Positions 7,191-38,106 of a stretch of DNA of 64,000 bases are shown in pieces. The translations under genes and the position numbers were made by a program. Below the pieces are notes generated by a model. It had not been told where the DNA came from. It worked only from the letters and a program-made list of their open reading frames with translations, and searched no databases. The number at the start of each line of letters is the position of its first letter. Within the stretch, counting starts at the first letter, position 1. The DNA is from Piscinibacter sp. HJYY11 (GTDB lineage Bacteria; Pseudomonadota; Gammaproteobacteria; Burkholderiales; Burkholderiaceae_C): assembly GCF_016735515.1 (NCBI RefSeq), contig NZ_JAERQZ010000001.1:1426001-1490000 (forward strand), given 5' to 3'.

Positions 7191-10100
7191 ATGGCCACCA
7201 TCATCCCCGCACTGAGCACCCAGCAGATCGCCGGCTTGTCGACCCGATCGATCGCTGGGCTGACCACAGAAGACTGGGCGGCGTTCCGCACTGACCAGAT
7301 CGTGGCCCTGACGACCGCACAGATGGCGGCCATCACGACCACCGGCATCGGTGCGCTGAACAGTGACCACATGATGGCGTTCGAGACGAACGACCTGCGC
7401 GCCCTGACGAGCACCGCCGTCCGCGCGCTGAACAGCGACCAGATCGGCGCCCTGTCGACCGACCAGGTCGGCGCCTTTACCACCGCCCAGGTGGCCGCGC
7501 TCACCACCGAGCAGCTCTCGTCGCTCGCCACGCAAGACCTCAACGCCTTCAGCACCGCGCACTTCGCCGCGATGTCGTCGTCGCAGTTGATGAACCTCAC
7601 CAGCGACCAGATCGCGCACCTGCAGACTGATGACCTGCGCGCCATCTCGACCGCCGCGATCCGCAGCTTCAACAGCGACCAGTTCACCGCGCTCACCTCC
7701 GACCAGATCGGCGCGCTGACCTCGGCCCAGATCACCTCGCTCACCACCGCCCAGATCGCAGGCCTCGGCACCGCCGACCTGAACGCGCTGACCTCCGACC
7801 AGATCCCGCGCCTGACGACGGCCCAGATCGCCGCGCTCAACAGCGACCAGCTGCCCTACATGCAGACGGCCGACATCGTTGCGCTGACGACTGCCCAGGT
7901 CGCCGCGCTGAGCGCCGGCCAGGTCGGCTACCTCACGAGCGACCACATCGCCGCGATCGAGACCGCTGACCTGCGCGTGCTCAACACCGCCTCGATCCGC
8001 GGCCTCACGAGCGAACAGCTCGCCGCCCTGAGCAGCGACCAGATGGGTGCGCTGACCACGGCCCAGACCGCCGCGCTCACCTCCGACCAGATCAACACGC
8101 TGACCACGCAAGACCTGAATGCGCTGGGCACCGCGCACTTCGCCGGCCTCACCGCCGCCCAGGTCGCCGGCCTCACCAGCGACCAGATCTCGCGCCTGCA
8201 AAGCGATGACCTGCGCTCGCTGAGCAGCAACGCGATCCGCGCGCTCACCAACGACCAGCTCGCCGCCCTCACGTCCGACCAGGTGCCGCTGCTGACCACG
8301 GCCCAGGTCTCGTCGCTGACCACCGCCCAGATCGGCGGCCTCGGCACCGCCGACCTGAACGCGCTGACCTCCGACCAGATCCCGCGCCTGACGACCGCCC
8401 AGATCGCCGCGCTGAACAGCGACCAGCTGCCCACGATGGAGACGGCCGACATCGCCGCCCTGACCACGGCACAAGTCGCCTCGCTGAGCGCTGCTCAAGT
8501 CGGCTACCTGACGAGCGACCACGTCGCCGCCATCGAGACCGCTGACCTGCGTGCCCTGGGCACCGCCGCCGTCCGTGGCCTCACGAGCGAGCAGCTCGGT
8601 GCCCTGAGCTCCGACCAGATCGGCGCGCTGACCACGGCCCAGACCGCTGCCCTCACGTCCGACCAGATCAACACCCTGGCCACCCACGACCTGAACGCGC
8701 TGGGCACCGCGCACTTCGCCTCGTTCACCGCCGCCCAGGTGGCCGGCTTCACCAGCGACCAGATCTCGCGCCTGCAGAGCGATGACCTGCGCTCGCTGAG
8801 CAGCAACGCCATCCGTGCGCTCACCAACGAGCAGCTCGGCGCCCTCACCTCCGACCAGGTGCCGACGCTCACCAGCGCCCAGGTCTCGTCGCTGACGAAC
8901 AGCCAGATCGCCGGTCTCAGCACCGCCGACCTGAACGCGCTGACGTCCGACCAGATCCCGCGCCTGACGACCGCCCAGATCGGCGCCCTGAACAGCGACC
9001 AGCTGCCGACGATGCAGACGGCCGACATCGCTGCGCTGACGACCGCCCAGGTCGCCGCCCTGCGCTCCGACCAGGTCAGCTACCTGACGAGCGACCATGT
9101 CGCCGCCCTCGAGACGGCCGACCTGCGTGCCCTCTCGACTGCCGCGATCCGCAACCTGACGAGCGAGCAGCTCGGCGCCCTGAGCAGCGACCAGATGGGT
9201 GCGCTGACCACGGCCCAGACCGCTGCGCTGACCTCCGACCAGATCAACACCCTGGCCACGCAAGACCTGAATGCGCTCGGCACCGCCCACTTCTCTGCCC
9301 TCACGGCAGCACAGGTGGCCGGCCTGACGAGCGACCAGATCTCGCGCCTCGAAAGCGATGACCTGCGCTCGCTGAGCAGCAACGCGATCCGCGCGCTGAC
9401 CAACGAGCAGCTCGGTGCCCTCACCTCCGATCAGGTCCCGACGCTCACCAGCGCCCAGGTCTCGTCGCTCACCACCGCCCAGATCGGCGGCCTGAGCACC
9501 GCTGACCTGAACGCCCTGAGCTCGGATCAGATCCCGCGCCTGACGACGGCCCAGATCGCTGCCCTGAACAGCGACCAGCTGCCGACGATGCAGACCGCCG
9601 ACATCGCCGCGCTGACGACCGCACAAGCCGCGACGCTGAGCGCCTCGCAAGTGAGCTACCTCACGAGCGACCACATCGCCGCGATCGAGACCGCTGACCT
9701 GCGCGCCATCAACACCGCCGCGATCCGCGGCCTGACCAGCGAGCAGCTCGGTGCCCTGAGCTCCGACCAGGTGGGTGCCCTGACGACCGCCCAGACCGCT
9801 GCGCTGACCTCCGACCAGATCAACACCCTGGCCACGCAAGACCTGAACGCGCTCGGCACCGCCCACTTCGCGTCGCTCACCGCGTCGCAAGTGGCGGGCC
9901 TCACCACCGACCAGATCTCGCAACTGCAGAGCGACGACCTGCGCTCGCTGAGCAGCAACGCGATCCGCGCGCTCACCAACGAGCAGCTCGGCGCCCTCAC
10001 GTCCGACCAGATCCCGACGCTCACCTCGGCCCAGGTCTCCACGCTGACCAATGCCCAGATCGCCGGCCTCGGCACCGCCGACCTGAATGCGCTCACGTCC

Positions 10101-13100
10101 GACCAGATCCCGCGCCTGACCACCGCCCAGATCGGCGCGCTGAACAGCGACCAACTGCCGTACATGCAGACCGCCGACATCGTCGCCCTGACGACGGCCC
10201 AGGTGGCCGCGCTGAACAGCGACCAGGTCGCCCTGCTGACCAGCGACCACATCGCCGCCTTCGAGACGGCCGACCTGCGGGCCCTGTCGACCGCCGCCCT
10301 GCGCAACCTCAGCACCGACCAGATCAACGCGCTGAGCAGTGACCAGTTCTCCGCGCTGACGACCGCGCAAGTCGCCGCGCTGACAGCCCAGCCGCAGTTC
10401 GAGAACATCACCACCAACGACCTGAACGCGCTCGGCACCCAGCACTTCGCTGCGATGACGGCGTCCCAGATCCAGGCGCTGACCACCGACCAGGTCTCGC
10501 GCCTCGAGACCCAGGACCTGCGCGCCATCACGACCGCCGGCATCCGCGCGCTGGGCTCCGACCAGCTCGCCGCGCTGACCTCCGACCAGATTGGCGCGCT
10601 GACCACGGCCCAGGTGTCCTCGCTGACCACCGCCCAGATCGGCAGCCTCGGCACCGCCGACCTGAACGCGCTGACCTCCGACCAGATCCCGCGCCTGACC
10701 ACGGCCCAGATCGCCGCGCTCAACAGCGACCAGCTGCCCTACCTGCAGACGGCCGACGTCGCCGCGCTGACCACGGCACAAGTCGCCTCGCTGAGCGCCG
10801 CTCAGGTCGGCTACCTGACGAGCGACCACGTCGCCGCCATCGAGACGGCTGACCTGCGCGCCCTGAACACGGCCGCGATCCGCGGCCTGACCAGCGAGCA
10901 GCTCGGTGCCCTGAGCTCCGACCAGATGGGTGCGCTGACCACGGCCCAGACGGCTGCGCTCACCTCCGACCAGATCAACACGCTCGCCACGCAAGACCTG
11001 AACGCCTTCGGCACCGCCCACTTCTCTGCCCTCACGGCAGCGCAAGTGGCCGGCCTGACGAGCGACCAGATCTCGCACCTGCAGAGCGATGACCTGCGCG
11101 CCCTGAGCAGCAATGCGATCCGCGCGCTGACCAACGACCAGCTGGCCGCCCTGACCTCGGACCAGGTGCCCACGCTCACGAGCGCCCAGGTTGCCTCGCT
11201 CACCACCGCCCAGATCGGCGGCCTCGGCACGGCCGACCTGAACGCGCTGACCTCGGACCAGATCCCGCGCCTCACCACCGCCCAGATCGGCGCCCTCAAC
11301 AGCGACCAGCTGCCGACCATGCAGACGGCTGACATCGCTGCGCTGACGACCGCCCAGGTCGCCTCGCTGAGCGCTGCTCAAGTCGGCTACCTGACGAGCG
11401 ACCACATCGCCGCCATCGAGACCGCCGACCTGCGTGCGCTGAACACGGCTGCGATCCGCGGCCTCACCAGCGAGCAGCTCGGTGCCTTGAGCTCCGACCA
11501 GATGGGTGCGCTCACCACGGCCCAGACGGCCGCGCTGACCTCTGACCAGATCAACACCCTGGCCACGCAAGACCTGAACGCGCTCAGCACCGCCCACTTC
11601 TCTGCCTTCACGGCAGCGCAGGTGGCCGGCCTGACCAGCGACCAGATCTCGCGCCTGCAGAGCGATGACCTGCGCGCCCTGAGCAGCAATGCGATCCGCG
11701 CGCTGACCAACGACCAGCTCGCCGCCCTGACCTCCGACCAGGTCCCGACGCTCACGAGCGCCCAGGTCGCCTCGCTCACGACCGCCCAGATCGGCGGCCT
11801 GAGCACCGCCGACCTGAACGCGCTGAGCTCGGACCAGATCCCGCGTCTGACGACCGCCCAGATCATTGCGCTGAACAGCGACCAGCTGCCGACCATGCAG
11901 ACGGCCGACATCGCTGCGCTGACGACCGCCCAAGTCGCCGCACTGCGCTCCGACCAGATCAGCTACCTCACGAGCGACCACATGGCCGCCATCGAGACGG
12001 CCGACCTGCGCGCCCTGTCGACGGCCGCGATCCGCAACCTGTCGAGCGAACAGCTGGGGGCTCTCTCGAGCGACCAGATGGGCGCCCTGACGACCGCCCA
12101 GACGGCTGCGCTGACTTCTGACCAGATCAACACCCTGGCCACGCAAGACCTGAACGCACTCGGCACCGCCCACTTCTCTGCCTTGACCGCAGCGCAAGTG
12201 GCCGGCCTGACGAGCGACCAGATCTCGCGCCTGCAGAGCGATGACCTGCGCGCCCTGAGCAGCAATGCGATCCGCGCGCTGACCAACGACCAGCTCGCCG
12301 CCCTGACCTCGGACCAGGTGCCCACGCTGACGAGCGCCCAGGTCGCCTCGCTCACCACCGCCCAGATCGGCGGCCTGAGCACCGCCGACCTGAACGCCCT
12401 GACGTCGGACCAGATCCCGCGTCTGACGACCGCCCAGATTGCTGCGCTGAACAGCGACCAGCTGCCGACCATGCAGACGGCCGACATCGCCGCCCTGACG
12501 ACCGCCCAGGTCGCCACCCTGAGCGCCGCTCAGGTCGGCTACCTGACGAGCGACCACGTCGCGGCCATCGAGACGGCTGACCTGCGTGCTCTGGGCACCG
12601 CCGCCGTCCGTGGCCTGACCAGCGAGCAGCTCGGTGCCTTGAGCTCCGACCAGATGGGTGCCTTGACCACGGCCCAGACCGCCGCGCTCACCTCGGACCA
12701 GATCAACACGCTGGCGACGCAAGACCTGAACGCGCTCGGCACCGCCCACTTCTCTGCCTTGACCGCAGCGCAAGTGGCCGGCCTGACGACGGACCAGATC
12801 TCGCGCCTGCAGAGCGATGACCTGCGCTCGCTGAGCAGCAACGCCCTCCGCGCGCTGACCAACGAGCAGCTCGGCGCCCTGACCTCCGACCAGGTGCCCA
12901 CGCTCACGAGCGCCCAGGTTGCCTCGCTCACCACCGCCCAGATCGGCGGCCTGAGCACGGCTGACCTGAACGCCCTGACCTCGGACCAGATCCCGCGTCT
13001 GACGACCGCCCAGATCGCCGCCCTGAACAGCGACCAGCTGCCCACGATGCAGACCGCTGACATCGTGGCCCTGACGACCGCCCAGGTCGCCACCCTGAGC

Positions 13101-16100
13101 GCCGCTCAGGTCGGCTACCTGACCAGCGACCACGTCGCCGCCTTCGAGACCGCCGACCTCCGCGCGCTGAACACCGCCGCCATCCGTGGCCTGACCAGCG
13201 AGCAGCTCGGTGCCTTGAGCTCCGACCAGATGGGCGCCCTGACGACGGCCCAGACCTCGGCCCTGACATCCGACCAGATCAACACCCTGGCGACGCAAGA
13301 CCTGAACGCGCTCGGCACCGCCCACTTCTCTGCCTTGACCGCAGCGCAAGTGGCCGGCCTGACGACGGACCAGATCTCGCGCCTGCAGAGCGATGACCTG
13401 CGCTCGCTGAGCAGCAACGCGATCCGCTCGCTGACCAACGAGCAGCTCGGTGCCCTCACCTCCGACCAGGTCCCGACGCTCACCAGCGCCCAGGTCTCGT
13501 CGCTCACCACCGCCCAGATCGGCGGCCTGAGCACCGCTGACCTGAACGCCCTGAGCTCGGACCAGATCCCGCGCCTGACGACCGCCCAGATCGCCGCCCT
13601 GAACAGCGACCAGCTGCCAACCATGCAGACGGCCGACATCGCCGCGCTGACGACCGCCCAGGTCGCTGCCCTGAGCGCCGCTCAGGTCGGCTACCTGACC
13701 AGCGATCACATGGCTGCGATCGAGACCGCCGACCTGCGTGCCCTGAGCACGGCGGCTGTCCGTGGCCTGACCAGCGAGCAGCTGGGCGCCCTGACGAGCG
13801 ACCAGATGGGTGCCCTGACGACCGCCCAGACCGCTGCGCTGACCTCCGACCAGATCAACACCCTGGCCACGCAAGACCTGAACGCGCTCGGCACCGCCCA
13901 CTTCTCTGCCCTCACGGCAGCCCAGGTGGCCGGCCTGACGAGCGACCAGGTGTCGAGCCTGCAGAGCGATGACCTGCGCGCCCTGAGCAGCAACGCCCTG
14001 CGCGCGCTGACCAACGAGCAGCTCGGTGCCCTGACCTCGGACCAGGTGCCGACCCTGACCTCGGCCCAGGTCTCGTCGCTGACCACCCAGCAGATCGCTG
14101 GCCTGAGCACCGCCGACCTGAACGCCCTGAGCTCGGATCAGATCCCGCGTCTGACGACCGCCCAGATCGCCGCGCTGAACAGCGACCAGCTGCCCACCAT
14201 GCAGACCGCTGACATCGCCGCCCTGTCGACCGCCCAGGTCGCCGCCCTGAGCGCTGCTCAAGTCGGCTACCTGACCAGCGATCACATCGGCGCGATCGAG
14301 ACCGCCGACCTGCGTGCCCTGAGCACGGCGGCTGTCCGTGGCCTGACCAGCGAGCAGATCGGTGCGCTCTCCAGCGACCAGATGGCGGCGCTGACCACGG
14401 CCCAGAGCTCGGCCCTGACGTCCGACCAGCTCAACACCCTGGCCACGCAAGACCTGAACGCCTTCAGCACCGCCCACTTCTCCGCCTTCACCGCGGCGCA
14501 AGTGGCCGGCCTGACGACCGACCAGATCTCGCGCCTGCAGAGCGACGACCTCCGCTCGCTGAGCAGCAACGCGATCCGTGCCCTGACCGACGAGCAGCTC
14601 GGCGCCCTGACGTCCGACCAGATCCCGACGCTCACCAGCGCCCAGGTCTCGTCGCTCACGACCCAGCAGATCGCCGGCCTGAGCACCGCCGACCTGAACG
14701 CCCTGAGCTCGGATCAGATCCCGCGCCTGACCACGGCCCAGATCGCCGCGCTGACCAGCGACCAGCTGCCGACCATGCAGACGGCCGACATCGCCGCGCT
14801 GACCTCGGCCCAGGTCGCCGCCCTGAGCGCAGCTCAAGTCGGCTACCTGACGAGCGACCACATCGCGGCCATTGAGACCGCCGACCTGCGCGCCCTGTCG
14901 ACCGCGGCCATCCGCGGCCTGTCGAGCGACCAGCTCGGTGCGCTGAGCTCCGACCAGGTGGGCGTGCTGACCACCGCCCAGGCGGCGGCGCTGACCACCG
15001 ACCAACTGCCGACCCTGGCCACCCAGGACCTCAACGCGCTGGGCACCGCCCACTTCGCTGCGCTGAGCTCGGCACAGGTCGAGTCGCTGGTCTCCGACCA
15101 GATCCGCAGCCTGCAGACCGATGACCTGCGTGCCATCACGACGACGGCGATCCGCGCGCTTGACTCCGACCAACTGGCCGCCCTCACGTCCGACCAGGTG
15201 GGCGCGCTCAGCACCCAGCAAGTCGCATCGTTGACCACCGACCAGGTGCCGACGATCACGACGGAAGACCTGCGTGCCCTGAGCAGCCAGCAGATCGCCT
15301 CGCTCACCACGGCGCAGGTCCGCACGCTGACCTCGGACCAGATCGCCTCGCTGAACAGCGACGATGTGGTGGCCCTGACCACGGCACACTTCGCCGCGTT
15401 CACGACCGACCAGCTCCAGGCCTTCACGACCGACCAGGTGTCGTCGATCGAGACCAACGACCTGCGTGCCCTGTCCGGCGCCTCGCTGCGTGCCCTGACC
15501 GATGCCCAGCTCGCCGAGCTGACGTCGGATCAGTTCCAGCAGCTGGGTGGTGCGGTGAACCAGTTCACCAGCGACCAGATCATGGGCCTGGCCACGCAAG
15601 ACCTGAACGCCCTCACCGCGTCGCAGTTCCTCGTGATGACCACCTCGCAGATCAACGCGCTGACGACCGAGCAGATCAACAACCTGCAAACGGCCGACAT
15701 CCGTGCCATCACGACCGCCGGCATCCAGCAGTGGGACCAGGCCCAGATCGAAGCGATCAGCACCGCGAACTTCGCCCAGCTGACCAACGCCCAGATCGCC
15801 GCGCTGACCACCGCACAGGCCCAGTTCCTGACGACCGACCAGATCGTGGCCCTGACCACCGACCAGGTCGTCGCGCTGGAAACGGCCGACATCGCGGCGA
15901 TGAGCATGGCGCAGATCTCGGCCTTCGAAAACGCTGACATCGGCCGCATGTCGGCTGCCCAGCTCGACGCGTACCTGGCGGCTTCGCCGGTCGTGCTCGA
16001 CCTCGACGGCAACGGCGTGAGCACCACGGCGGCCGCCAACGGCGTCAACTTCGACCTGAACGCGAGCGGCAACACCAGCCAGCGCTACGGCTGGGTCGAC

Positions 16101-21418: not shown

Positions 21419-21478
21419 GTGTTCGCTCCAAAAAGAAGTGGGGGAGCGGATGATGGGAGGGTGCTTTCCATTCATCAA

Positions 21479-21520: not shown

Positions 21521-21874
21521 ATGAGCAGCGACGACGTTCATTTCAACTGCGGCATCGGCCCGGCCTTCGCCGTCATCGGCGGCAAGTGGAAGGCGGTCAT
21601 CCTGTGGGAACTGCACGGCGCCACGCGCCGCTTCGGCGAGCTCAAGCGGCTGGTGCCCGGCATCACCGAGAAGATGCTGATCCAGCAGTTGCGCGAGCTC
21701 GTCGCCGACGGGCTGGTGTCGCGGGTGGACCGGGCGACCGTGCCGCCCCACGTGGAGTACTCGCTGACGCCGCTCGGGGTGTCGCTCAACCAGGCGCTGG
21801 GCCCGCTGGCGCAGTGGGGCACCGACTACGAGGCCCAGCGCGCGGCCTCGGGCGCGGCCGACACGCCGGTGTAG
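21521..21874 (+). CDS. HxlR-family winged-helix transcriptional regulator
   Basis: A 117-residue HxlR/MarR-like DNA-binding protein. It shows the family signature: IGGKWKAVILWEL, RRFGELKRLVPGITEKML (recognition helix), then LVSRVDRATVPPHVEYSLTPLG (the wing) and a C-terminal dimer helix. The N-terminus has the conserved cysteine (VHFNCGIGPAF) that in several HxlR proteins senses quinones, aldehydes or other electrophiles. It probably represses or activates the divergent oxidoreductase gene and itself. The ATG at 21521 has GGAGG at 21508-21512. Confidence 0.9.
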   Translation: MSSDDVHFNCGIGPAFAVIGGKWKAVILWELHGATRRFGELKRLVPGITEKMLIQQLRELVADGLVSRVDRATVPPHVEYSLTPLGVSLNQALGPLAQWGTDYEAQRAASGAADTPV

Positions 21875-21999
21875 CGCCCGCGGGCTCGGGGGAGAACCGC
21901 CCCCTTTCCGCCCCTATTCCGCCCGCTTGGCGCACCCCCGCGTCGATAGCATGCCTCGTCACCATTGGCCTGCGAGACGCGCCCTGCGGCGCCTGCAAC

Positions 22000-27339: not shown

Positions 27340-27340
27340 C

Positions 27341-28304: not shown

Positions 28305-29435
28305 TCAGGCGGCGAGCTTGTGCAAACGCGCGGCGACTTCGCGCACGGCCGCGATCACCTGGTCGGTCTGGGCGTCGGTCTGCGTCGGGCCGATGGGCAG
28401 GCTCAGCACTTCGGCGTGCATGGCTTCCGAGATCGGCAGGCTGCCGGCCTTCAGGCCCAGCGAGGCGTAGGCCGGCTGCAGGTGCGGCGCGACGGGGTAA
28501 TGGATCATGGTGTGCACGCCGAGCGCCGCGAGGCCCTGGGCCAGCGCGTCGCGCTGCGGGTGGCGCACGACGAAGAGGTGCCACACCGGCTCGTGGCCCG
28601 CCGGCACGACCGGCAGCGTCAGGCCGAGGCCGGCCAGGCCCTGCAGGTAGCGCTGCGCGATCTCGGCGCGGCGCTCGTTCTGGCCCTGCAGCGCGGGCAG
28701 CTTGGCGCGCAGCAGCGCGGCCTGCAGCTCGTCGAGGCGCGAGTTGTAGCCGATGACTTCGTTGTGGTACTTCACCCGCGAGCCGTAGTTGCGCAGCACG
28801 CGCAGGCGGTCGGCGATCTGCGGGTCGCTGGTGGTGACGGCACCGCCATCGCCGAGCGCGCCGAGGTTCTTGCCGGGGTAGAAGCTCCACGCGACCGCAT
28901 CGCCATGCGCGCCGACACGGCGGCCGTGGTAACGGGCGCCATGCGCCTGGGCACCGTCTTCCAGCACACGCAGGCCATGCTTGCGGGCGATGGCGACGAT
29001 CGGGGCCATGTCGGCCGCCTGGCCGTACAGGTGCACCGGCAGGATGACCTTCGTGCGCGGCGTGATCGCGGCTTCGATGCGGGCCACATCCAGGTTGAAG
29101 GTGGCCGCGTCGGGCTCCACCGGCACCGGCACGGCGCCGATGTGGCTCACGGCCAGCCAGGTGGCGATGTAGGTGTTCGAGGGCACGATGACCTCGTCGC
29201 CTTCGGTCACATCCATCGCGCGCAAGGCGAGCGTGAGCGCATCGAGGCCATTGGCCACGCCGATGCAGTGTTCAGCGTCGCACCACGCGGCGTATTCGGC
29301 TTCGAATTTCGCCACTTCCTGGCCGAGGATGTACCAGCCGGAATCGAGCACGCGGTCGAACGCGGCGCGCAGCTCTTCGCGCTGCGTCATCTGGATGGCC
29401 TTGAGGTCGAGGAAGGGAACGCTCGGGTGGGTCAT
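28305..29435 (-). CDS. fdtB: DegT/DnrJ/EryC1 aminotransferase, probable dTDP-3-oxo-6-deoxyhexose 3-aminotransferase (FdtB/QdtB/WxcK-like)
   Basis: A 376-residue PLP-dependent sugar aminotransferase. The Schiff-base lysine is Lys189 in [17 protein letters not shown]. Other family motifs are [36 protein letters not shown] and [18 protein letters not shown]. Together with the ketoisomerase and acetyltransferases upstream it would make dTDP-Fucp3NAc or dTDP-Quip3NAc from dTDP-4-oxo-6-deoxyglucose. RmlA/RmlB, needed to supply that precursor, are not in the window. The gene symbol reflects this context; FdtB and QdtB cannot be told apart by eye. Confidence 0.85.
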
Positions 29436-29448
29436 GGCGGGCAGAGGC

Positions 29449-29943
29449 TCAGGGTTTCTTGGCGAGGTAGACGTTGCGGGCGTAGTCGCCGCGCACCACC
29501 GAATGGGGCGGCACGTCTTTCGTGACCACCGCGCCGGCGCCGACCATGGCGCCCTCGCCGATCACGAGGCCGGGCAGGATCACCGCGCCGGCGCCGATGG
29601 AGGCGCCCGCCTTCACGACGGTGCGCGCGAAGGCATCGGGGTACTGCTTGGAGCGCGGGTAGCGGTCGTTGGAAAACGTCACGTTCGGGCCGATGAAGAC
29701 CTTGTCTTCGAGCGTGATGCCGTCCCAGAGGTAGTTGCCGCACTTCACCGTCACGTCGTCGCCGATCACGACGTCGTTCTCGATGAAGCAGTGGCTGTTG
29801 ATGTTGCAGTTGGCGCCGATGCGGGCGCCGGCCAGCACGACCGTGAACTGCCACACCGTCGAGCCGGCGCCAATGGCGGTGCACTGGCAGTCGGCGAGGC
29901 GATGGACAAACGGCTCGCTGGAGGGGGACGAGGGGCTGCTCAT
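29449..29943 (-). CDS. fdtC: Sugar N-acetyltransferase, left-handed beta-helix (FdtC/WlbB-like)
   Basis: A 164-residue hexapeptide acetyltransferase. Repeats run from [22 protein letters not shown] through [19 protein letters not shown] to [20 protein letters not shown] and the closing [19 protein letters not shown]. The [28 protein letters not shown] stretch is typical of WlbB/FdtC/PglD-type N-acetyltransferases that acetylate the amino group of UDP- or dTDP-amino sugars. With FdtB next to it, it probably completes dTDP-3-acetamido-3,6-dideoxyhexose. The start at 29943 has GAGGGG only 1 nt upstream, which is unusually close, so initiation may be weak or coupled. Confidence 0.8.
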
Positions 29944-30020: not shown

Positions 30021-30941
30021 TCAGGCCTTGGCCTGGCCGCTGATGCGGATGAAGTCGGCGTAGTCGCGGATGTAGTCCGCGTTGTCGTAGTAGTCGGAGG
30101 CGAACACGAGCAGCATCGCGTCGGCCGAATACTTGTACTGCACGCCCCAGGTCATGGGCGGCAGGTAGATGCCGCGGTCGGGCGAGTCGAGCAGCACCTC
30201 GACCTTGTGCTCGCCGTCGTCGGCCATCACGGCGCAGCTGCCGCGCACGCAGATCAGGAACTGGTGGCACTGGTGGTGGGCATGCTCGCCGCGGATCTCG
30301 CGGCTGGGCACGCCGAACACCATGAAGTAGCGCTTGGGCGTGAACGGCACCTGGCGGTCGAACTCGCCCACCGTGAGGCTGCCGCGCAGGTCGGGGATCA
30401 CCGGGAAGTGGTGAACCGTGACGCCCTTCACGGCCGTCTCTTCGATCTTGGCGCCGCCGCGCGAGCCGCCATGCAGGGGCGCGGTGCCGGGGCCGGGGGC
30501 CGCGTCGACGTAGCCGATGATGTTGGCGGGGTTGCCTTCGACGATGGCGCCGGGCGGCACCGAGCGCGAGACGACCGAGCCCGGCCGCACGATGGCCTTG
30601 GCACCGATCACCACGCCGGCCAGGATGCTGGCGTTGGCGCCGATCCAGGCGCCGGCCTTGACCACCGCCGCCGGCTGGCCGCCACCCGGGGCACCGGCAA
30701 ACGCCGCATGCGCGCCGATGTGCACCTGGCTCTCGATCACCGTGCCACGGCAGATGTGGGCACCGCTCTCGACCACGCAGTCGTCACCGATCACCGCCTG
30801 GGCATCGACGAAGGCGTGCGGGCCCAGCGTGGTGCCGCCGCCGACGGTGGCGCTCGGGTCGACCACGCTGTAGCGCTCGCGCTGTGCGCGGGCGGCGGCG
30901 TCGATCAGCGATTCGCGCTCGGTGTCGGTCATCAGGCCCAT
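30021..30941 (-). CDS. wxcM: Bifunctional acyltransferase / dTDP-4-oxo-6-deoxyhexose 3,4-ketoisomerase (WxcM/FdtA-like)
   Basis: A 306-residue fusion. Residues about 25-155 are a left-handed beta-helix acyltransferase ([56 protein letters not shown]). Residues about 175-300 are a cupin of the FdtA/QdtA type: [17 protein letters not shown], then [17 protein letters not shown], which carries the catalytic histidines, and [14 protein letters not shown]. The cupin isomerises the 4-keto sugar to the 3-keto form that FdtB aminates. Xanthomonas WxcM has the same two-domain layout. The start at 30941 is supported by GAGGA 7 nt upstream; a second ATG lies at 30932. A separate FdtC-like acetyltransferase follows. 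Confidence 0.87.
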
Positions 30942-30975: not shown

Positions 30976-32319
30976 TCACTTGAGCTGGGCCTGGACCCCC
31001 AGGCCCAGCGACCAGAGCAGCGCGTTGGACTGCTGGCCGTCGTAGAGCGCGTTCACGTAGCTCACGCGCAGGTTGTAGTGGTCGCCTTCGGAGGCCATCA
31101 CGTCGAACAGTGACCGGCGGCCGAGCTGCTGCCACTGCTGCAGGGTGAAGTTGCGCAGGCGCTCGCTGTCGCGCAGCACCTCCACCACGCGGCGCGCACG
31201 GTCGAAGGACGACATGGCCTGGTCGTGCACCTCGGTCATGCGCGAGCGCTTGGACTCGAGCGCATCGGCGCGCTGCAGGCGGGCCGCTTCGGCGCGCTTG
31301 CGCGATGAATCGACCGCATGGCCGACGGGCGCGTTGAAGATGGGCATGCTGACGTTGATGCCGGCCGACCAGGTGCCGGAGTTGCCGACCCCGCGCACCT
31401 CGCTCCCGCTCACCGTGGCGCTGACCTGCGGCCAACGCTGGGCCTTCACCGATTCGGCAAACGCCTTCGAGGCTTCGGCCTGGGCGGTGAGCTGGGCGAT
31501 GTCGGGGGCGCCCTCGGCCTGTGCGAGCACGTCAGGCAGGTTGGGCACGCTCATCAGCGTGACCGGCACCACCGGGTTGGCGGGCAGCTGCTCGCCGACG
31601 AAGCGGCGCAGGCGTGTCTCGACCTGGCGCACGGTGGACAGGGTCTGGGCGTAGGAGACCTCCGCCTGCTTCTGGTTCTTCTGCGCCTGCACGAGCTCGC
31701 TCTGGCGGCCACGGTCGGCGCGCACGATGGTCTGCAGCGCCTCGACCAGGCAGCTCATCTTGCGGGCGTACTGCTGGTAGACCTGCGCCTGCTGGTGGTA
31801 GCGGCTGCGCTCGATGGCGAGCGACACGGTCTGCAGCGCCACCTGCTCCTGGGCGTTGATGTGGCCGAAGCGGGCCGCTTCGGCCAGGCTTTCGCGCCAG
31901 TCGGTGAGGTCGGAGATGCGGCCACCGTCGAAGATGGGCACGGTCACGCTGAAGGTGCCGCGGCCCTGCTTGCCGCGGGCTTCTTCCACGCCGCCGACTT
32001 CGGAGCGCGTGCTGCCGATCGTGCCGCCCACGTTGACCGTGGGAAAGCGGGTCGCGCGGGTTTCCTTGACGTCGATCGCAGCGGCTTCGGCCAGCAGCTT
32101 GGCGGCACCGATGGCCTGGCTGCGGCGCAGGGCTTCGCGCACGAGGTTGTGCAGGTTCTCGCGCGGGTCACTGCCGCCGGCGCCTTCGATGGGGGTCGCA
32201 TCGGTGCGGGCTTCGGCCGCGCTTTCGTCGATGCAGTTGGCGTCTGCCGGCATCACGGCCAGCAGCGCGAGCACGGCGGCGAATGCAGGCAGGAGTTGTT
32301 GGACGGTGGGTTTGATCAA
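30976..32319 (-). CDS. TolC-family outer-membrane efflux protein of the type I secretion system
   Basis: A protein of about 447 residues with a signal sequence ([20 protein letters not shown]) and the long-helix architecture of TolC-type proteins: two halves rich in Ala/Gln/Arg coiled-coil sequence ([38 protein letters not shown]) and the [21 protein letters not shown] strand-helix junction typical of the family. It forms the outer-membrane channel. The start is uncertain: TTG at 32319 has GGAG 6 nt upstream and is preferred; a GTG at 32331 adds four residues but has no ribosome binding site. It follows hlyD-like and ABC genes on the same strand, 169 bp after hlyD. Confidence 0.85.
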
Positions 32320-32359
32320 GACGGGCTCCACGGGGGCTGCGTACTACAGGGACAGCACT

Positions 32360-32488: not shown

Positions 32489-33715
32489 TCATCTTTCGCG
32501 GAACGCTTCTTTGGACTTCAGCATGGGGCGCAGGATGAAGCTCAACACCGAGCGCTCACCCGTGCGCACTTCCACCTGCGCCGTCATGCCCGGCAGGATG
32601 GGCAGCGCCTTGCCGCTCTTGTCCTTCAGCGTGGAGCGGTCGCTGCGCATCATCACGCGGTAGTACGTCGAGTCGGGCGTGCCCTTGTCGGCCTCGCCCA
32701 GCGCATCGGGGCTGATGTATTCGATCTTGCCGTGCAGGCCGCCGTAGGTGTTGTAGTCATACGCGGCGAGCTTGACCTCTGCCTTCTGGCCCACGCGCAC
32801 GAAGCCCACGTCGCTCGGCTTGAGTCGCGCCTCCACCAGCACGCGCGAGCCGATGGGCACGATCTCCATGATGGCCGCGCCCGGCCCCACCACGCCGCCG
32901 ATGGTGTTGATGCGGATGTTCTTCACCAGGCCGCGCACCGGCGAGGTGAGCACGGTGCGGCGCAGCACGTCGGCACGGCCGGCGAGTTGCTCGTCGAGCA
33001 GCGAGAGCTCGGTCTGGGCGCGCACCAGCTCGCCGCTCGCGTCCTGGCGGAACTTGTTGATGCGCTCGCGTGCGTTGAGCTGCAGGTCGTTGACCTGGCG
33101 GCGCAGGCGCATCACCTCCACCTCGCTCATCAGGCCCTTGGCCGACATGGCCTCCGAGACGCCCAGCTCCTTCATCAGCAGCTGCACGTTGCGCGCGTTG
33201 GTGTGCAGCGCTTCGTCGAGCGCCAGCTTGCGGGCGTTGAAGGAGTCGGTCTCGGCTTCCACCAGCGAGGCCACGGCCTTCACTTCATCGGGGAACTTGA
33301 GCGCACGGCCATTGGCTTCGGCCGTGAGGCGGGCGATGGTGGCGAGCAGCGCCACGCGCTTGGCCTCGCCTTCGTTCTGCTGCGACTCGAAGCGGGTGGG
33401 GTCGAGCTGGGCCAGCTCCTGCCCTTCGAACACCTGCGTTCCTTCGCGCACGTGCAGCTCGCGCAGGATGCCGCCTTCCAGGCTCGCGATCACCTGCTCG
33501 CGGCCCTCGGGCACCACGCGGCCATCGGCGCGGGTGATCTCGTCGACCTTGGCGAGCGCAGCCCAGGCCACGCCGGCCACCAGAATCACCGCGATCAGGT
33601 ACAGCGTGAGGTTGGTGCCGGGCAGGGAGTCGACCACCATCGCGGCGCGCACGTCGGCCACGTAGGCCATCTCCTGGCCGCTCGGGTCCTTGGGTTTGCG
33701 TTTCCAGAAGGCCAT
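32489..33715 (-). CDS. HlyD-family periplasmic adaptor of the type I secretion system
   Basis: A 408-residue membrane-fusion protein. One N-terminal transmembrane helix (LTLYLIAVILVAGVAWAAL, about residues 37-55) is followed by the lipoyl half-motif DGRVVPEGREQVIASLEGG, a coiled coil of about 150 residues, and the second lipoyl/beta-barrel part (RTVLTSPVRGLVKNI, VLVEARLKPSDVGFVRVGQ). ILPGMTAQVEVRTGERSV near the C-terminus is the classic end motif. It bridges the ABC exporter and the TolC channel. The ATG at 33715 has GGGAGG 6 nt upstream; a longer frame from 33742 runs into a dispersed repeat. It is 86 bp after the ABC gene. Confidence 0.93.
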   Translation of the reverse strand: MAFWKRKPKDPSGQEMAYVADVRAAMVVDSLPGTNLTLYLIAVILVAGVAWAALAKVDEITRADGRVVPEGREQVIASLEGGILRELHVREGTQVFEGQELAQLDPTRFESQQNEGEAKRVALLATIARLTAEANGRALKFPDEVKAVASLVEAETDSFNARKLALDEALHTNARNVQLLMKELGVSEAMSAKGLMSEVEVMRLRRQVNDLQLNARERINKFRQDASGELVRAQTELSLLDEQLAGRADVLRRTVLTSPVRGLVKNIRINTIGGVVGPGAAIMEIVPIGSRVLVEARLKPSDVGFVRVGQKAEVKLAAYDYNTYGGLHGKIEYISPDALGEADKGTPDSTYYRVMMRSDRSTLKDKSGKALPILPGMTAQVEVRTGERSVLSFILRPMLKSKEAFRER

Positions 33716-33730
33716 GTCAAGCCTCCCGCC

Positions 33731-33792
33731 GGGCCGCCCCAAGGGAGGCTGGCGCCCCCTCGGGGGGCAGTGAGCGAAGCGAGCGTGGGGGC
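33731..33792. repeat. Dispersed GC-rich palindromic repeat (REP-like)
   Basis: The segment holds the palindrome GCCCCCTCGGGGGGC and the string TGAGCGAAGCGAGCGTGGGGG. I recall very similar intergenic sequences recurring in Burkholderiales genomes. It sits in the 86-bp gap between the ABC and hlyD-like genes, where it could affect mRNA stability or relative expression. Confidence 0.55.
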
Positions 33793-33801
33793 GTCGTCAT
33801 A

Positions 33802-36066
33802 TCAAACAGAAGCTTGACGCTGCACCGGCTGTGTCGACGGGTGCAGGTGGACGTTGGGCGACGTGGTGGTCTCGGGCGTCGCCGTGGCTGCAGGCTTGGC
33901 GCCCGACAACGCCGCCAGCACCTGGGCCTTCGGCCCGTCGAGCACGACCTTGCCGCCATCGACCACCACGACACGTTGTGCGAGCTCGAGCACCGCCGGG
34001 CGGTGCGTGACCATCACCACGGTGCGTGTGCCCAGCGCTTCGTTGAGCTGGCGCAGGAAGAGGGTTTCGCTTTGCGCGTCCATCGAACTGGTGGGCTCGT
34101 CCATCAGCAGGATCTGCGGCTGCGTGACGAGGCAGCGCGCGAGCGCCACGAGCTGGCGCTGGCCGCCCGAGAGCAGGCCGCCCATTTCGCCGACCGGGAG
34201 CTCCCAGCCCTGCGGGTGCGAAGCGATCAGGCGGTCGAGACCGGTCACGCGGGCCACTTCGGCCAGGCGCGTCGCGTCGACCGAGACACGGCCCATCAGC
34301 ACGTTCTCGCGCAGCGTGCCCTTGAACAGGCGCGGCTCCTGCGAGACGAAGCCGACCTTCACGCGGAAATCGGCCGGGTCGATCTGGCGCAGGTCGATGC
34401 CGTCGACCTCGACCATGCCTTCGGTCGGCTGGTAGAGGCCGGCCAGGAGGCGCAGCACGGTCGACTTGCCGCTGCCGATGCGCCCGAGGATGGCGACCCG
34501 CTCGCCCGGCTCGAACTTGAGCGTCACGCCCTTGAGCACCTTCGGTGCCGCGGCGTCTTCGGCGGTGGGCGGGTAGGAGAAGCCGACTTCGCGCAGCGCG
34601 ATGCGGCCCTTGATCTCGTGGTTGGCCACGTAGGTCGCGCCGGGGGTGCGCTCGAGCGGCAGGCTCATCATCTGGTCGAGCGCCACCATCGCGGCGCGCG
34701 CGCCCTGGTAGCGAGTGGCCAGGCCCACCACGCTGTTGAGCGGCCCGATGGCGCGGCCGGCGAACATGATCGCGCCGATGACCGCACCGCCGCTGATGAC
34801 GCCGGCATGGATGAGGTAGACGCCGACGATCAGCATCACGAGCGTGACGAGCTGCTGCGACATCGCGGCGATGTTGTTGGTGAGGCCGCCGAGCGAACGT
34901 GCGCGCAGGGCCGTCTCGGCACCCGCAGCGGTGGCGTCTTCGTAGCGGCGCAGGAAGCGGCCCTGCGCGCCGGCGGCCTTCACGTCTTCCAGGCCCTCGA
35001 CCGCCTCGACGAGGAGGCCCTGCAGGTCAGCCTGGTGGGCCATGTGGGCGCTCATCGAGCGACGCAGCGACGACTGGATCACAAACGACACCAGGAGGAT
35101 CAGCGGCACGGCAAACACCAGCACCCAGCCGAGCGGGCCGCCGATCACGAAGGTCATCGCGATGAAGATCACGATGAACGGCAAGTCGCTCAAGGCCGAC
35201 AGCGTGGCGCCGGCGAAGAAGTCGCGCACCGTCTCGATCTGCGCGAGGTGGTGGGCATAGGAGCCGGCCGACTCGGGCCGGTGCTCCATGCGCACGCCCA
35301 GCGTCTGGCGAAAGAGCAGCGAGCCGATCAGCATGTCGGCCTTCTTGCCGGCGCGGTCGATCAGGCTGCTGCGCAGCTGGCGGGCGATGAGGTCGAAGCC
35401 GAGCGCGATGAAGCCGCCGGTCGCCAGCGCCCACAGCGTGACGAAGGCCTGGTGCGGGATCACCTTGTCGAACACGACCGCAGTGATGAGGCCGCTGGCC
35501 AGCATCAGCACGTTGCTCAGCGCCGCGGCCAGCAGCGCGGAGCGGTAATAAGGAATGAAGCGGCGCAGCGTGCCCCACAGCCAGTGCGCACCGGGGTCGA
35601 GCAGGGCCTCGTCGCCAAGGTTCACGGCCGCCTGAGGCTTGGGCGAGGCCACGAAGGCAAAGCCGGTGTATTCGCCCACGAGCTCGGCCTCGGTCGCCTT
35701 GCAGGCGTGGCTCTCGGGGCCGGGCATGATGACGTCGTAGGCGTCGGCGCCCTTGTCAGCCGCGTGGCGGGCCACGAGGATGGCGCAGTCGCCGTTCTTC
35801 AGCAGCAGCACCGCCGGCAGCAGCAGCGAGTGGATGTCGGAGATGCGCTTCTGGATCAGGCCGGCGTTGAAGCCCGCCTCGCGCATGATGCGCACCGCCT
35901 GGTCGGGGCCGAGGTTGCCCTCCACCGGCGTGTTGGCCAGCAGCGACTCGGCCGAGCGCTCGCGCCCATGGTGCTTGCACAGCCAGACGATCGCCTGCGC
36001 CAGCGCATCGTCGGCATGCAACGAGCCTGCGGGCGGTGCGATGAAAGGTTCCTGGCGTGCGCTCAT
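33802..36066 (-). CDS. Type I secretion ABC transporter (permease/ATPase) with a degenerate C39-like domain
   Basis: A 754-residue HlyB/LapB-type exporter. The N-terminal 140 residues form a C39-like domain, but the catalytic Cys position reads DDALAQAIVW, so it should bind rather than cut the substrate. Residues about 165-440 hold the six-helix permease (LLAAALSNVLMLASGLITAVVF, DLPFIVIFIAMTFVI and others). The ATPase has Walker A GRIGSGKST, signature LSGGQRQ, Walker B ILLMDEPT and the His switch VTHRP. The C-terminal tail is Pro/Thr-rich and low in complexity. It heads an ABC-HlyD-TolC set and is preceded by a GT41 gene. The exporter class suits large RTX-like proteins with an uncleaved C-terminal signal, such as the two octad proteins in this window. 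Confidence 0.93.
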   Translation of the reverse strand: MSARQEPFIAPPAGSLHADDALAQAIVWLCKHHGRERSAESLLANTPVEGNLGPDQAVRIMREAGFNAGLIQKRISDIHSLLLPAVLLLKNGDCAILVARHAADKGADAYDVIMPGPESHACKATEAELVGEYTGFAFVASPKPQAAVNLGDEALLDPGAHWLWGTLRRFIPYYRSALLAAALSNVLMLASGLITAVVFDKVIPHQAFVTLWALATGGFIALGFDLIARQLRSSLIDRAGKKADMLIGSLLFRQTLGVRMEHRPESAGSYAHHLAQIETVRDFFAGATLSALSDLPFIVIFIAMTFVIGGPLGWVLVFAVPLILLVSFVIQSSLRRSMSAHMAHQADLQGLLVEAVEGLEDVKAAGAQGRFLRRYEDATAAGAETALRARSLGGLTNNIAAMSQQLVTLVMLIVGVYLIHAGVISGGAVIGAIMFAGRAIGPLNSVVGLATRYQGARAAMVALDQMMSLPLERTPGATYVANHEIKGRIALREVGFSYPPTAEDAAAPKVLKGVTLKFEPGERVAILGRIGSGKSTVLRLLAGLYQPTEGMVEVDGIDLRQIDPADFRVKVGFVSQEPRLFKGTLRENVLMGRVSVDATRLAEVARVTGLDRLIASHPQGWELPVGEMGGLLSGGQRQLVALARCLVTQPQILLMDEPTSSMDAQSETLFLRQLNEALGTRTVVMVTHRPAVLELAQRVVVVDGGKVVLDGPKAQVLAALSGAKPAATATPETTTSPNVHLHPSTQPVQRQASV

Positions 36067-36210: not shown

Positions 36211-38106
36211 TCAGCGGGCCCGGTATTCCAGTGCCAGGCGCTCGAATTCGTGCTCGATGTCACGCACGAGCTGGGGCACGTCGAAGAGCTTCGATTGCCG
36301 GCCCTGCTCGGCCAGGTAGCGCTTGTACGACGCCACGCGCAGGGGGTTGCGGCCCAGCTGCACCGCGAGCTTCTCGTAGTCGGCCAGCGAGAAGGTCACG
36401 AGGTCGGGCAGGCCCACGGCGGTGAGCAGGCTGCCGGCCATGCGCGAGATGTAGCTGCGGCCGCTGTAGGTGACGATCGGCAGGCCCATCCACAGCGCAT
36501 CGCTGGCGGTGGTGCCGGCGTTGTAGGGGAAGGTGTCGAGCATGAGATCGGCCAGCTGGAAGCGGGCCAGGTACTCGGGCGGCGCCACGCGCGGCGCGAG
36601 GATCATGCGCGACGGGTCGATGCCATGCGCATCGGCTTCGCTCCTCAGGTTGGCGAGCGCCCAGTCGTTGTCGGCCAGCAGCCACAGCACCGAGTTGGGC
36701 ACCTGCTGCAGGATGCGCAGCCAGCTGCGGAAGAGCTCGTCGGTGAACTTGAAGGTGTTGTTGAACGAGCAGAAGACGAAGGCGTCTTCCGGCAGGCCGT
36801 AGTCGGCGCGCTTGGGCGTCGGGCCGGCTTCGCGCTGGCGGTCGCTCACCTGGTAGCAGCTGGGCACGTAGATCGGCTTTTCCGTCATGTACGGCTGCAG
36901 CTCGGGCGGCATCACGAAACGGTCGGCCAGGATCCAGTCGACACCCGGCAGCGCGCAGGTGCCCGGCAGGCCGAGGTAGCTCACCTGCACGGGCGCCGGG
37001 CGCATGCCGACGATGGCCGGGCGGGCGCCGCTGGTGAGGCCTTGCAGGTCGACCAGGATGTCGATGCCGGCTTCAGCGATCAGGCGCGCGGCGGTCACGT
37101 CGTCGAGGCCGCCGATGGGCACGTAGTGGTCGATGGCGGCGCGGATGCGCGCGCGCAGCGGGGTGCCGTCGTCGCGGCTCCACGAGAAGGCGTAGACCTC
37201 GAAACGCTCGCGGTCGTGCAGCTCCAGCAGCTCGACCGACAAGAGGCCCACCGCATGCATGTGCAGGTCGCCCGAGAGGTAGCCGATGCGGATCTTGCCT
37301 TCGCGCTTCGGGCCGGCCTTGTGGAAGGGTTGGGCCGGCGGCTTGGGCGTGCGGTCGTGCACGAAGCGCTGGGCCACGAGCAGCTGCAGGGCCGGGTCGT
37401 CGCTCTGGCCGAGCATGGCCAGCACCGAGGTGCCCATCACCAGCTGGTTGGGCGTGACCTCGCCGACCGGCTGGTAGACCGGCCAGGCGCACTTCTTCTG
37501 GCGCAGGTGCACGTAGTGCTGGATCACGTCGTTCTGCGTGGGCTTCTTCTCCAGGCTCCTGACCATGTAGGCCTCGGCCTCGTCGTAGCGGCGCTGGGTC
37601 TCGTACAGGCGGGCCATGTTGTTCAGGCCGTGCAGCAGCAGCTCTTCCTCGATGCCGGGGGTCTCGACCACCTGTTTCCAATGGGCGAGGGCCTCGTCGG
37701 GGCGGCCCTGGCGTTCGACCTGGTGGCCGAGATTCAGGCGGGCCTGGTGAAAGACGGGGCTCAGGGCCAGCGCGCGCAGGTAGGCCTTTTCGGCATCGGC
37801 CGCGCGGTTCAGGCTGCCGAGCACGGTGCCCCAGTTGAAGCAGGCCACGTGGAGCATGGGCGACACGTTGTGCGCGATCCACACCTCGTACAGCTCGGCC
37901 GAGGCCGCCAGCTGGCCGCTTTGCTGCAGCAGCTGGTTGTGGTTCATCAGATCGCCCAGCCCCATCGCGCCCGTGCGTGCCAGGGCGAGCAGGCGCTGGT
38001 GCTCGGTGGGCACGGCCTGGGGCACCTGGAGGGCCTGAATCTGGTTCGCCGCCGCCTTGGGCGTCACCACGGGCGCCATCGGGGGTTTTGCGGTCGACTT
38101 TTTCAT
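36211..38106 (-). CDS. TPR-containing GT41 glycosyltransferase (SPINDLY/O-GlcNAc transferase type)
   Basis: A 631-residue protein. Residues about 50-215 are TPR-like helical repeats (ACFNWGTVLGSLNRAADAEK, ARLNLGHQVERQGRPDEAL, ARLYETQRRYDEAE). Residues about 270-620 are GT41: RIGYLSGDLHMHAVGLLSVE with the likely active-site His, IDILVDLQGLT, RPAPVQVSYLGLPGT, VFCSFNNTFKFTDEL, then LDTFPYNAGTTASDALWMG and VTYSGRSYISRMAGSLL, the hallmark of the family. GT41 enzymes O-glycosylate Ser/Thr of cytosolic proteins (GlcNAc or fucose in known cases; Caulobacter FlmG modifies flagellin). Its position directly before the type I exporter genes and in a window with two giant Ser/Thr proteins suggests it modifies a secreted protein before export. 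No clear ribosome binding site is seen before the ATG at 38106. Confidence 0.9.
   Translation of the reverse strand: MKKSTAKPPMAPVVTPKAAANQIQALQVPQAVPTEHQRLLALARTGAMGLGDLMNHNQLLQQSGQLAASAELYEVWIAHNVSPMLHVACFNWGTVLGSLNRAADAEKAYLRALALSPVFHQARLNLGHQVERQGRPDEALAHWKQVVETPGIEEELLLHGLNNMARLYETQRRYDEAEAYMVRSLEKKPTQNDVIQHYVHLRQKKCAWPVYQPVGEVTPNQLVMGTSVLAMLGQSDDPALQLLVAQRFVHDRTPKPPAQPFHKAGPKREGKIRIGYLSGDLHMHAVGLLSVELLELHDRERFEVYAFSWSRDDGTPLRARIRAAIDHYVPIGGLDDVTAARLIAEAGIDILVDLQGLTSGARPAIVGMRPAPVQVSYLGLPGTCALPGVDWILADRFVMPPELQPYMTEKPIYVPSCYQVSDRQREAGPTPKRADYGLPEDAFVFCSFNNTFKFTDELFRSWLRILQQVPNSVLWLLADNDWALANLRSEADAHGIDPSRMILAPRVAPPEYLARFQLADLMLDTFPYNAGTTASDALWMGLPIVTYSGRSYISRMAGSLLTAVGLPDLVTFSLADYEKLAVQLGRNPLRVASYKRYLAEQGRQSKLFDVPQLVRDIEHEFERLALEYRAR

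Follow-up and report, generated by a model that had tools for sequence, protein, structure and literature searches.

We analysed a 64,000-nucleotide stretch of DNA from Piscinibacter sp. HJYY11 (contig NZ_JAERQZ010000001.1, positions 1,426,001 to 1,490,000; hereafter the window), whose home genome measures 5.62 Mb in two contigs. Between positions 7191 and 38106 of the window lie two giant proteins built of ALTTAQ octad repeats, a type I secretion system (T1SS) made up of an ATP-binding cassette (ABC) permease, an HlyD adaptor and a TolC-like channel, a glycosyltransferase of family GT41, and a set of sugar genes; together they are likely to glycosylate the repeat proteins and then export them. 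The open reading frames (ORFs) of the locus are as follows.

7191..16649, + strand: giant ALTTAQ octad protein 1 (ORF1), 3152 aa; PF20080; 192-aa super-repeats; calcium domain like the FrpC self-processing module (SPM) from ~15972; tail DDNNNLPLI
16735..20553, + strand: ALTTAQ octad protein 2 (ORF2), 1272 aa; PF20080; SPM-like domain from ~19876; tail PAPLI
20558..21430, - strand: gene resembling 6-phosphogluconate dehydrogenase/imine reductase; frame open as far as 21751; without a listed homologue in the family exporter regions compared
21586..22800, + strand: GT2a, GT2 glycosyltransferase; domain from ~22021; true start unsure
22814..23707, + strand: GT2b, GT2 glycosyltransferase
23727..25247, + strand: GT11 (fucosyltransferase-type)-FkbM methyltransferase fusion
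25317..26672, - strand: GT2MT, methyltransferase with a weak N-terminal GT2 match; nearly full-length homologue fused to GT41 in Oxalobacteraceae loci
26659..27498, - strand: hexapeptide-repeat acetyltransferase; ORF overlaps GT2c, start probably internal to the ORF
27341..28303, - strand: GT2c, GT2 glycosyltransferase (25.3 bits, cut-off 23.3)
28305..29435, - strand: FdtB/QdtB-type sugar aminotransferase
29432..29884, - strand: 150-aa ORF flanked by FdtB and FdtA/C; no Pfam match at thresholds up to E 1
30021..30941, - strand: fusion of acetyltransferase and FdtA ketoisomerase (WxcM-like; FdtA/C)
30976..32331, - strand: TolC-like outer-membrane channel
32489..33742, - strand: HlyD-family adaptor (TIGR01843)
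33802..36066, - strand: LssB-type T1SS permease/ATPase (TIGR03375)
36211..38106, - strand: tetratricopeptide repeats (TPR) plus GT41 (O-GlcNAc-transferase-type) glycosyltransferase

From 38.1 to 25.3 kb the - strand genes run in the order GT41, ABC, HlyD, TolC, FdtA/C, 150-aa ORF, FdtB, GT2c, acetyltransferase, GT2MT, and the octad genes, together with the three + strand transferase genes (GT2, GT2 and GT11-FkbM), converge on this run. The 6-phosphogluconate-dehydrogenase-like - strand gene (~20.56-21.43 kb) sits between the octad genes and the + strand transferases, and the 150-aa ORF is kept in a Rhizobacter relative (L077; 65% over 110 residues).

Repeat proteins, exporter and glycosyltransferase

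ORF1 and ORF2 consist almost wholly of octads of the type LTTxQIAA and match the ALTTAQ repeat family PF20080 with 2577.7 and 785.6 bits, respectively (cut-off 26.4), scores that rule out chance composition as the source of the octads. The two ORFs account for all 110 PF20080 places among the matches listed in the genome; a literature search on this repeat found no paper. ORF1 holds 741 Ser/Thr residues and no Cys, its 192-aa super-repeat corresponds to 24 octads at 82% identity, and 69% of its octads have Ser/Thr at position 2 and 85% at position 3. The ATG at 7191 matches the start pattern M-A-T/S-I-I-x-x-L-S-T of relatives, and no typical signal peptide was seen in either octad ORF, as judged by eye with no signal-peptide predictor run.

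The C-terminal 450 residues of ORF2, modelled with AlphaFold2 from 26 sequences (mean pLDDT 85.7), are predicted to form one short helix in each octad, at positions 3-8. In every one of 27 octads of the model the helix takes in positions 3-6 and spares positions 1-2, which makes position 2 the predicted helix cap and position 3 the predicted first helical residue. PDB entry 9zem (HeliScrew4), a designed protein with ALTTAQ-like octads that often have Pro at position 3, agrees with one helix per octad.

The C-terminal calcium domain (15972-16646 and 19876-20550, + strand) is homologous to the FrpC SPM (E 7.8e-30) and shares its calcium-binding fold. The reactive Asp before Pro of the SPM is replaced in 63 of 63 ALTTAQ copies (Thr in 49, Ser in 14), and FrpC-type clip-and-link by the published mechanism was rejected for the octad proteins for this reason. 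A hydroxyl residue is retained at the reactive position across all 63 copies. Besides this replacement, the ALTTAQ giants differ from RTX proteins of the FrpC/ApxIVA type in that octads make up nearly all of the remaining protein.

The ABC permease/ATPase scores 765.7 bits against TIGR03375 (LssB type; cut-off 693.1) and the HlyD adaptor 342.7 bits against TIGR01843 (cut-off 208.65), while the TolC-family protein matches Pfam OEP over its cut-off (114.7 bits) and TIGR01844 under it (96.2 bits, cut-off 225.15). The first two scores place the exporter with LssB-type T1SS, from which it differs in its linkage to GT41 and sugar genes and in its ALTTAQ cargo.

The GT41 family is best known for O-GlcNAc in animals. 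The window GT41 matches PF13844 with 264 bits and, when aligned to XcOGT (2jlb), keeps the Lys of FNNTFK and the His of HAVGLL, which we take to have catalytic roles, as well as the DTFPYNAGTTASDALW stretch; human OGT was also matched. The same genome encodes another TPR-GT41 (contig C1, ~118491-122389, 0.120 Mb), directly after a ShlB/FhaC two-partner transporter gene in an HMW1C-like arrangement.

Among the sugar genes, FdtA matches PF05523 (180.6 bits) and the WxcM-like 4mzu (E 3e-86), and the FdtB-like aminotransferase matches QdtB 3frk (E 5e-111), its best match being the transaminase 2oga (E 1.5e-128); the GT2 match of GT2MT (19.8 bits) lies below the 23.3 cut-off. A second DegT aminotransferase, 47% identical to FdtB, and a Gfo/Idh/MocA oxidoreductase gene lie 11 kb past GT41 (49283-51531, - strand) and possibly belong to another nucleotide-sugar pathway.

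A first-pass annotation, made from the letters alone, had described this region as two giant Ser/Thr-rich octad proteins with C-terminal calcium domains and no N-terminal signal, a complete ABC/HlyD/TolC exporter, a GT41 gene directly before the exporter genes, a dTDP-3-acetamido-3,6-dideoxyhexose pathway, at least six transferases, and a reverse-strand run of genes in one direction. Our analysis bears out that description: FdtA, FdtB and FdtC are present by homology, all called genes between 38.1 and 25.3 kb are on the - strand, and the transferases comprise GT41, three GT2, GT11-FkbM, GT2MT and the hexapeptide acetyltransferase.

Distribution and gene order across genomes

The family sample held 150 genomes, mostly one per genus, and the Fisher values for it ignore relatedness. 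ALTTAQ repeats were found at E<=1e-5 in 36 of them. Orthologues of the window ABC form a group of 29 genomes at no less than 875 bits (next match 608), and those of GT41 a group of 25 at no less than 722 bits (next 390); a further GT41 copy of G101, split over two contigs, was not counted. ALTTAQ and ABC occurred together in 28 genomes, ALTTAQ without ABC in 8, ABC without ALTTAQ in 1 and neither in 113 (p=4e-22). The corresponding counts were 25, 11, 0 and 114 for ALTTAQ and GT41 (p=3e-20), and 24, 5, 1 and 120 for ABC and GT41 (p=7e-22). The first-pass annotation had proposed to look for co-occurrence of octad genes, exporter and GT41, and this check was strongly passed. The exporter orthologue was present in a single one of the 114 ALTTAQ-negative genomes (G043, 80% complete). 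As a control, 12 genomes with an ABC of 39-44% identity included 4 ALTTAQ-positive ones, showing no enrichment (p=0.32).

GT41 and ABC lie on the same strand with a gap of 9-394 bp between tblastn ends in all 24 genomes that have both (own included), and an ALTTAQ gene was located by hand on the same contig as GT41, at most 31 kb away, in 18 of 25 genomes (~1.2% expected per genome). Of the five ABC-positive genomes that are not in the GT41 group, three (G046, G067 and G139) have a GT41 of 37-38% identity no more than 8 kb from the exporter; in G101 a fragment of GT41 sits at the end of a contig, and in G043 the exporter is on a 5.9-kb contig. Among the family exporter regions compared, only the same-genus G119 closely shares the aconitase, exonuclease and Tct genes of the flanks, which otherwise give weak matches of 24-41%; AcnA is also closely shared with two Rhizobacter loci (L076, L077) of the named-genome scan. 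Simple inheritance of the region was rejected on these grounds. An AbiEii-type nucleotidyltransferase gene, type IV toxin-antitoxin or defence-like, lies beside the Tct transporter genes (43885-44643, - strand).

The C-terminal tail of the octad proteins was compared with the presence of the exporter. Among intact ALTTAQ C-termini, 30 of 32 from genomes with an exporter orthologue end in [PVT][LIM][ILV], mostly PLI behind an acidic stretch, compared to 0 of 21 where the orthologue was not seen, in a whole-genome search for G012, G058 and G138 and in the fetched stretch for the remaining genomes. Ten ORFs judged by eye to be interrupted (one from G013, eight from G030, one from G056) were dropped from these counts. 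The 30 Oxalobacteraceae-type proteins listed carry a W-containing tail, mostly of the WFSVPNR kind, and none ends in PLI. This covariation is the best sequence evidence that the T1SS exports ALTTAQ proteins and supports the point well: the pump probably exports the giant octad proteins, and C-terminal targeting is probable.

A scan of named genomes gave 47 GT41 loci, whose exporters were compared in the stretches near GT41. In 32 of the 47, GT41 is preceded on its own strand by an ALTTAQ gene that ends 131-335 bp away, and in 34 GT41 is fused to a nearly full-length homologue (40-48%) of the window GT2MT; by Pfam, one such fusion consists of GT41 and methyltransferase, with no GT2 match. The titles of the fused loci read Duganella, Rugamonas, Pseudoduganella or Oxalobacteraceae, and once (L106) Burkholderiaceae bacterium, and two Malikia-type loci (L084, L085) show adjacency without fusion. 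HlyD and/or ABC genes are found in seven Oxalobacteraceae loci (L091, L101, L102, L108, L109, L116, L121) and in three Malikia-type loci, at 25-32% identity to those of the window, with one partial ABC match of 38%. Because the exporters seen near adjacent or fused loci are only distant relatives, GT41 appears to be tied to the repeat protein and not to any one exporter. Nine of the 15 loci lacking adjacency (L076-L082, L119, L122) have the window-type order GT41-ABC-HlyD-TolC; L083 and L106 have little upstream flank, in which the C-terminal domain is visible, L110, L112 and L113 are second copies in genomes having an adjacent one, and L117 (Massilia) has no ALTTAQ within 10 kb of GT41.

The closest named GT41 loci come from Rhizobacter metagenome genomes (78% identity; own or very near records were possibly excluded). 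In a tree of 67 GT41s, the window orthologues, Malikia, G513 and Oxalobacteraceae share a clade of 47 rows (100/100); a separate clade (100/100) contains the GT41s of G046, G067, G139 and G012. Because both clades carry it, the pairing with ALTTAQ is not limited to one GT41 clade.

In a draw of 398 genomes from the phylum, 25 were ALTTAQ-positive, and GT41 at E<=1e-90 was present in 19 of these compared to 32 of 373 ALTTAQ-negative genomes (p=4e-14). We fetched stretches from 17 of the 24 positives other than our own (leaving out G204, G276, G292, G335, G336, G344 and G417), and nine of them held a GT41 match, only partial in G225 and G248; that of G341 held no octad array. ALTTAQ and GT41 lie on one contig in G252 and G264, ~8 and ~26 kb apart. 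Apparent multi-GT41 fusions, single frames of ~2460-3780 codons with two or three GT41 matches in a row, were seen in phylum genomes rich in ALTTAQ matches (G252:C92:27053-35776; G276:C153:2077-9006; G213:C29:53626-57594). Caulobacter vibrioides, a search control genome and a relative or the home of the glycosyltransferase FlmG, also has an ALTTAQ match.

The association held in a later draw of 399 genomes of the order, in which the exporter was looked at in fetched stretches only: GT41 was found at E<=1e-10 in 13 of 14 new ALTTAQ-positive genomes. It lies on the same contig within ~13 kb of ALTTAQ in nine of the 14 (G583, G650, G652, G705, G790, G793, G817, G818, G874) and on another contig in G619 and G685; G711 offers only a GT41 of 33% identity, likewise on a different contig, and for G698 the position of ALTTAQ was not seen. 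G583, the only genome of this draw with an exporter orthologue (59%) in its fetched stretch, has the tail KHLPLI, which fits the pattern.

To compare octad composition with the presence of GT41, we counted GT41 as present at ~E 1e-90 or better and used the genomes with arrays read. The median position-3 Ser/Thr per genus was 0.935 across the 38 genera with GT41 compared to 0.56 across the 7 that lack it (one-sided p=0.007). Genus g366 was counted in both groups, through G874 in the first and G711 in the second, and moving G817 (best E 5.5e-90) to the other group gave p=0.005. The Oxalobacteraceae values of 0.80-0.90 (seven loci) were left out of the test. At position 2 the values were 0.67 with and 0.75 without GT41 (two-sided p=0.10). 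Position-3 Ser/Thr was low in G055 (0.06-0.07, with Pro/Ala there), G532 (0.26) and G058 (0.32); G055 also has a 33% GT41 of another clade ~2 kb from its array. Although post hoc, this sequence comparison is suggestive and moderately supports position 3 as the acceptor.

Proposed glycosylation before export and its alternatives

We consider it likely that the locus is a dedicated system that glycosylates its cargo and then exports it. From its gene content, conservation, adjacency and gene fusion, and from the covariation of tail and exporter, we infer the following steps. The ALTTAQ giants would be made in the cytosol, and the TPR-GT41 would bind them and add a first sugar to octad Ser/Thr, most likely at position 3. 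The GT2, GT11 and methyltransferase enzymes would extend or decorate this sugar, partly fed by the dTDP-3-acetamido-3,6-dideoxyhexose pathway. The LssB-type ABC/HlyD/TolC exporter would recognise the short C-terminal tail and secrete the protein in one step; outside the cell the FrpC-SPM-like domain would fold on calcium, and the sugar-coated octad solenoid may form a surface layer or adhesive matrix. Comparative genomics strongly supports the link between GT41 and ALTTAQ, and the proposed composition of the glycan is weakly supported. Because GT41 accompanies such repeat proteins in many other bacteria, the octad proteins probably receive their sugar coat within the cell, ahead of export. The first-pass annotation had already called glycosylation before export plausible, and the comparative tests support that reading, with GT41 following the repeat protein and the tail following the exporter.

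We would give even chances to a broader proposal, namely that ALTTAQ-GT41 loci represent a widespread Gram-negative form of glyco-export. OGT-type enzymes would prime one hydroxyl per octad (position 3), giving hundreds of sites per molecule, the Oxalobacteraceae GT41-methyltransferase fusion, with its putative second glycosyltransferase domain, would build and cap a short glycan, and a type I exporter would move the glycosylated solenoid over both membranes; loss of GT41 would lead to loss of position-3 Ser/Thr, so that the modification could be read from the sequence itself.

Several observations weigh against glycosylation before export. In the family, whose Fisher values leave relatedness aside, 8 of the 36 ALTTAQ-positive genomes have no exporter orthologue and 11 have no close GT41 (some being incomplete); ALTTAQ lies ~430 kb from GT41 in G133 and ~65 kb in G149, and none was seen near GT41 in the fetched stretches of G028, G052 (20 kb only), G116 (a 10.8-kb contig, its ALTTAQ place unlisted), G127 and G143. 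In the phylum, GT41 occurs in only 5 of 9 ALTTAQ-positive genera, 16 of the 25 positives belong to two genera of one family, and six (G204, G335, G341, G344, G417, G532) have no GT41 at E<=1e-90; nor was GT41 found in the ALTTAQ-positive G024 (E<=1e-20) and G759 (E<=1e-10). Both exceptions to the PLI-type tail come from G030. The position-3 test was devised after part of the data had been seen, and position 3 is high without a good GT41 in G759 (0.91) and G711 (1.00) and low with GT41 in G493 (0.23-0.36), G048 (0.36, 14 octads) and G011 (0.55); in the G493 array beside GT41, position 3 reaches 0.36 and position 4 0.77. Finally, only 13 of the 29 exporter regions (own included, several on short contigs) showed Fdt genes. 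GT41 is thus the constant and the sugar set the variable part, and the role of Fdt in the system is uncertain.

Alternatively, the ALTTAQ giants could be T1SS-exported proteins like those of a surface layer (S-layer), attached to a polysaccharide that the sugar genes nearby produce, with GT41 acting in glycan synthesis or on another target; the Caulobacter S-layer exporter, which adjoins O-antigen genes, would be a parallel. Loci for surface polysaccharides typically hold Fdt, GT2 and GT11 genes, and the sugar genes vary between loci while the ALTTAQ gene and the exporter stay. However, the GT41 family glycosylates proteins, and GT41 is a more constant neighbour of ALTTAQ than any other gene, even beside distantly related exporters; in other loci a counterpart of the window's GT2MT methyltransferase protein is fused to GT41. 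In addition, no flippase (Wzx), polymerase (Wzy), phosphoglycosyltransferase or oligosaccharyltransferase matched among the 37 window ORFs scanned with Pfam. We regard this alternative as unlikely. It is rather improbable that octad Ser/Thr are purely structural helix caps and that GT41 modifies flagellin or other cargo, its linkage to ALTTAQ being incidental. Position 2 does immediately precede every helix of the model, a place at which Ser/Thr acts as a cap, and its Ser/Thr content is independent of GT41; moreover, FlmG, a TPR-OGT, modifies Caulobacter flagellins (PMC7591256). Yet the flagellin genes (1.706 and 1.811-1.812 Mb) lie ~240-350 kb from GT41 (1.462-1.464 Mb), which weakens the flagellin target that the first-pass annotation had offered as an alternative and led us to reject it; all 25 family genomes with a GT41 orthologue carry ALTTAQ, the two genes adjoin in most named loci, and position 3 tracks GT41, with exceptions.

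Glycosylation could also be marginal if GT41 served chiefly as a TPR chaperone or adaptor maintaining the giant in an export-competent state. Such a role has a parallel in the chaperone activity also proposed for HMW1C (PMC3983070), but the motifs shared with XcOGT are kept, and a fusion to a methyltransferase makes little sense for a pure chaperone; we think this very unlikely. The patchiness of positives across genera, and the relatedness that the Fisher tests leave in, would also suit a mobile or ancestral island co-inherited without functional coupling. Against such an island, the ALTTAQ-GT41 pair persists while the arrangement varies by lineage, ALTTAQ is paired with more than one GT41 clade, the flanking housekeeping genes are closely shared only with the same-genus genome and the two Rhizobacter loci, and the match of tail and exporter spans genera, so that we hold it to be the least probable of these explanations.

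Relation to known systems

The best reading of the glycosylate-then-export system, by analogy, is as a type I counterpart of Gram-positive serine-rich-repeat glyco-export. Clusters for serine-rich-repeat proteins (SRRPs) are described (PMC6973325, PMC5578698) as comprising a substrate, a dedicated exporter, a priming O-glycosyltransferase and variable further transferases. Like these SRRP/accessory Sec loci (Fap1, GspB, L. reuteri SRRPs), the window locus combines a Ser/Thr-rich repeat substrate, a dedicated exporter and variable transferases in one cluster, and the priming O-glycosylation before export that takes place there is proposed here. Unlike them, it is Gram-negative, uses a T1SS instead of SecA2/SecY2 and GT41 instead of GtfA/GtfB, probably has C-terminal rather than N-terminal targeting, and encodes an octad solenoid rather than Ser-rich stretches. 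No SecA2/SecY2/Asp or GtfA/GtfB family was found among the 37 Pfam-scanned ORFs of the window, the only region searched. The locus works like an SRRP/accessory Sec locus and is not a member of that family.

HMW1C (PMC3983070) is a GT41-family enzyme of the cytosol whose gene neighbours those of a high-molecular-weight adhesin and of the adhesin's exporter, and the window likewise has a GT41-family gene beside a giant protein and exporter genes. Unlike HMW1C, which is Asn-directed, has an AAD domain and serves Sec and TpsB export, the window has a TPR-GT41 and a T1SS. No TpsB (ShlB/POTRA) or TpsA was found among the window ORFs scanned; ShlB adjoins the other GT41 at 0.12 Mb. The substrate of FlmG leaves the cell by flagellar export. 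According to PMC7591256, this Caulobacter enzyme, which like the window GT41 has TPR plus a glycosyltransferase domain, O-glycosylates exported flagellin in the cytoplasm, binding it via the TPR and using pseudaminic acid, and in substrate, sugar and export route it differs from what is proposed for the window.

Among the matches listed in the literature searches there was no paper on a T1SS-GT41 system of this kind. If our interpretation is true, Gram-negative bacteria would have their own serine-rich-repeat glycoprotein pathway, built on a T1SS and GT41, a set of bacterial TPR-GT41 genes would gain a substrate, and the PF20080 repeat a function. The T1SS would have to let a chain dense with glycans through, a case relevant to how such channels deal with modified cargo, and the octad arrays would serve as natural acceptor scaffolds in which a predicted site recurs every eight residues.

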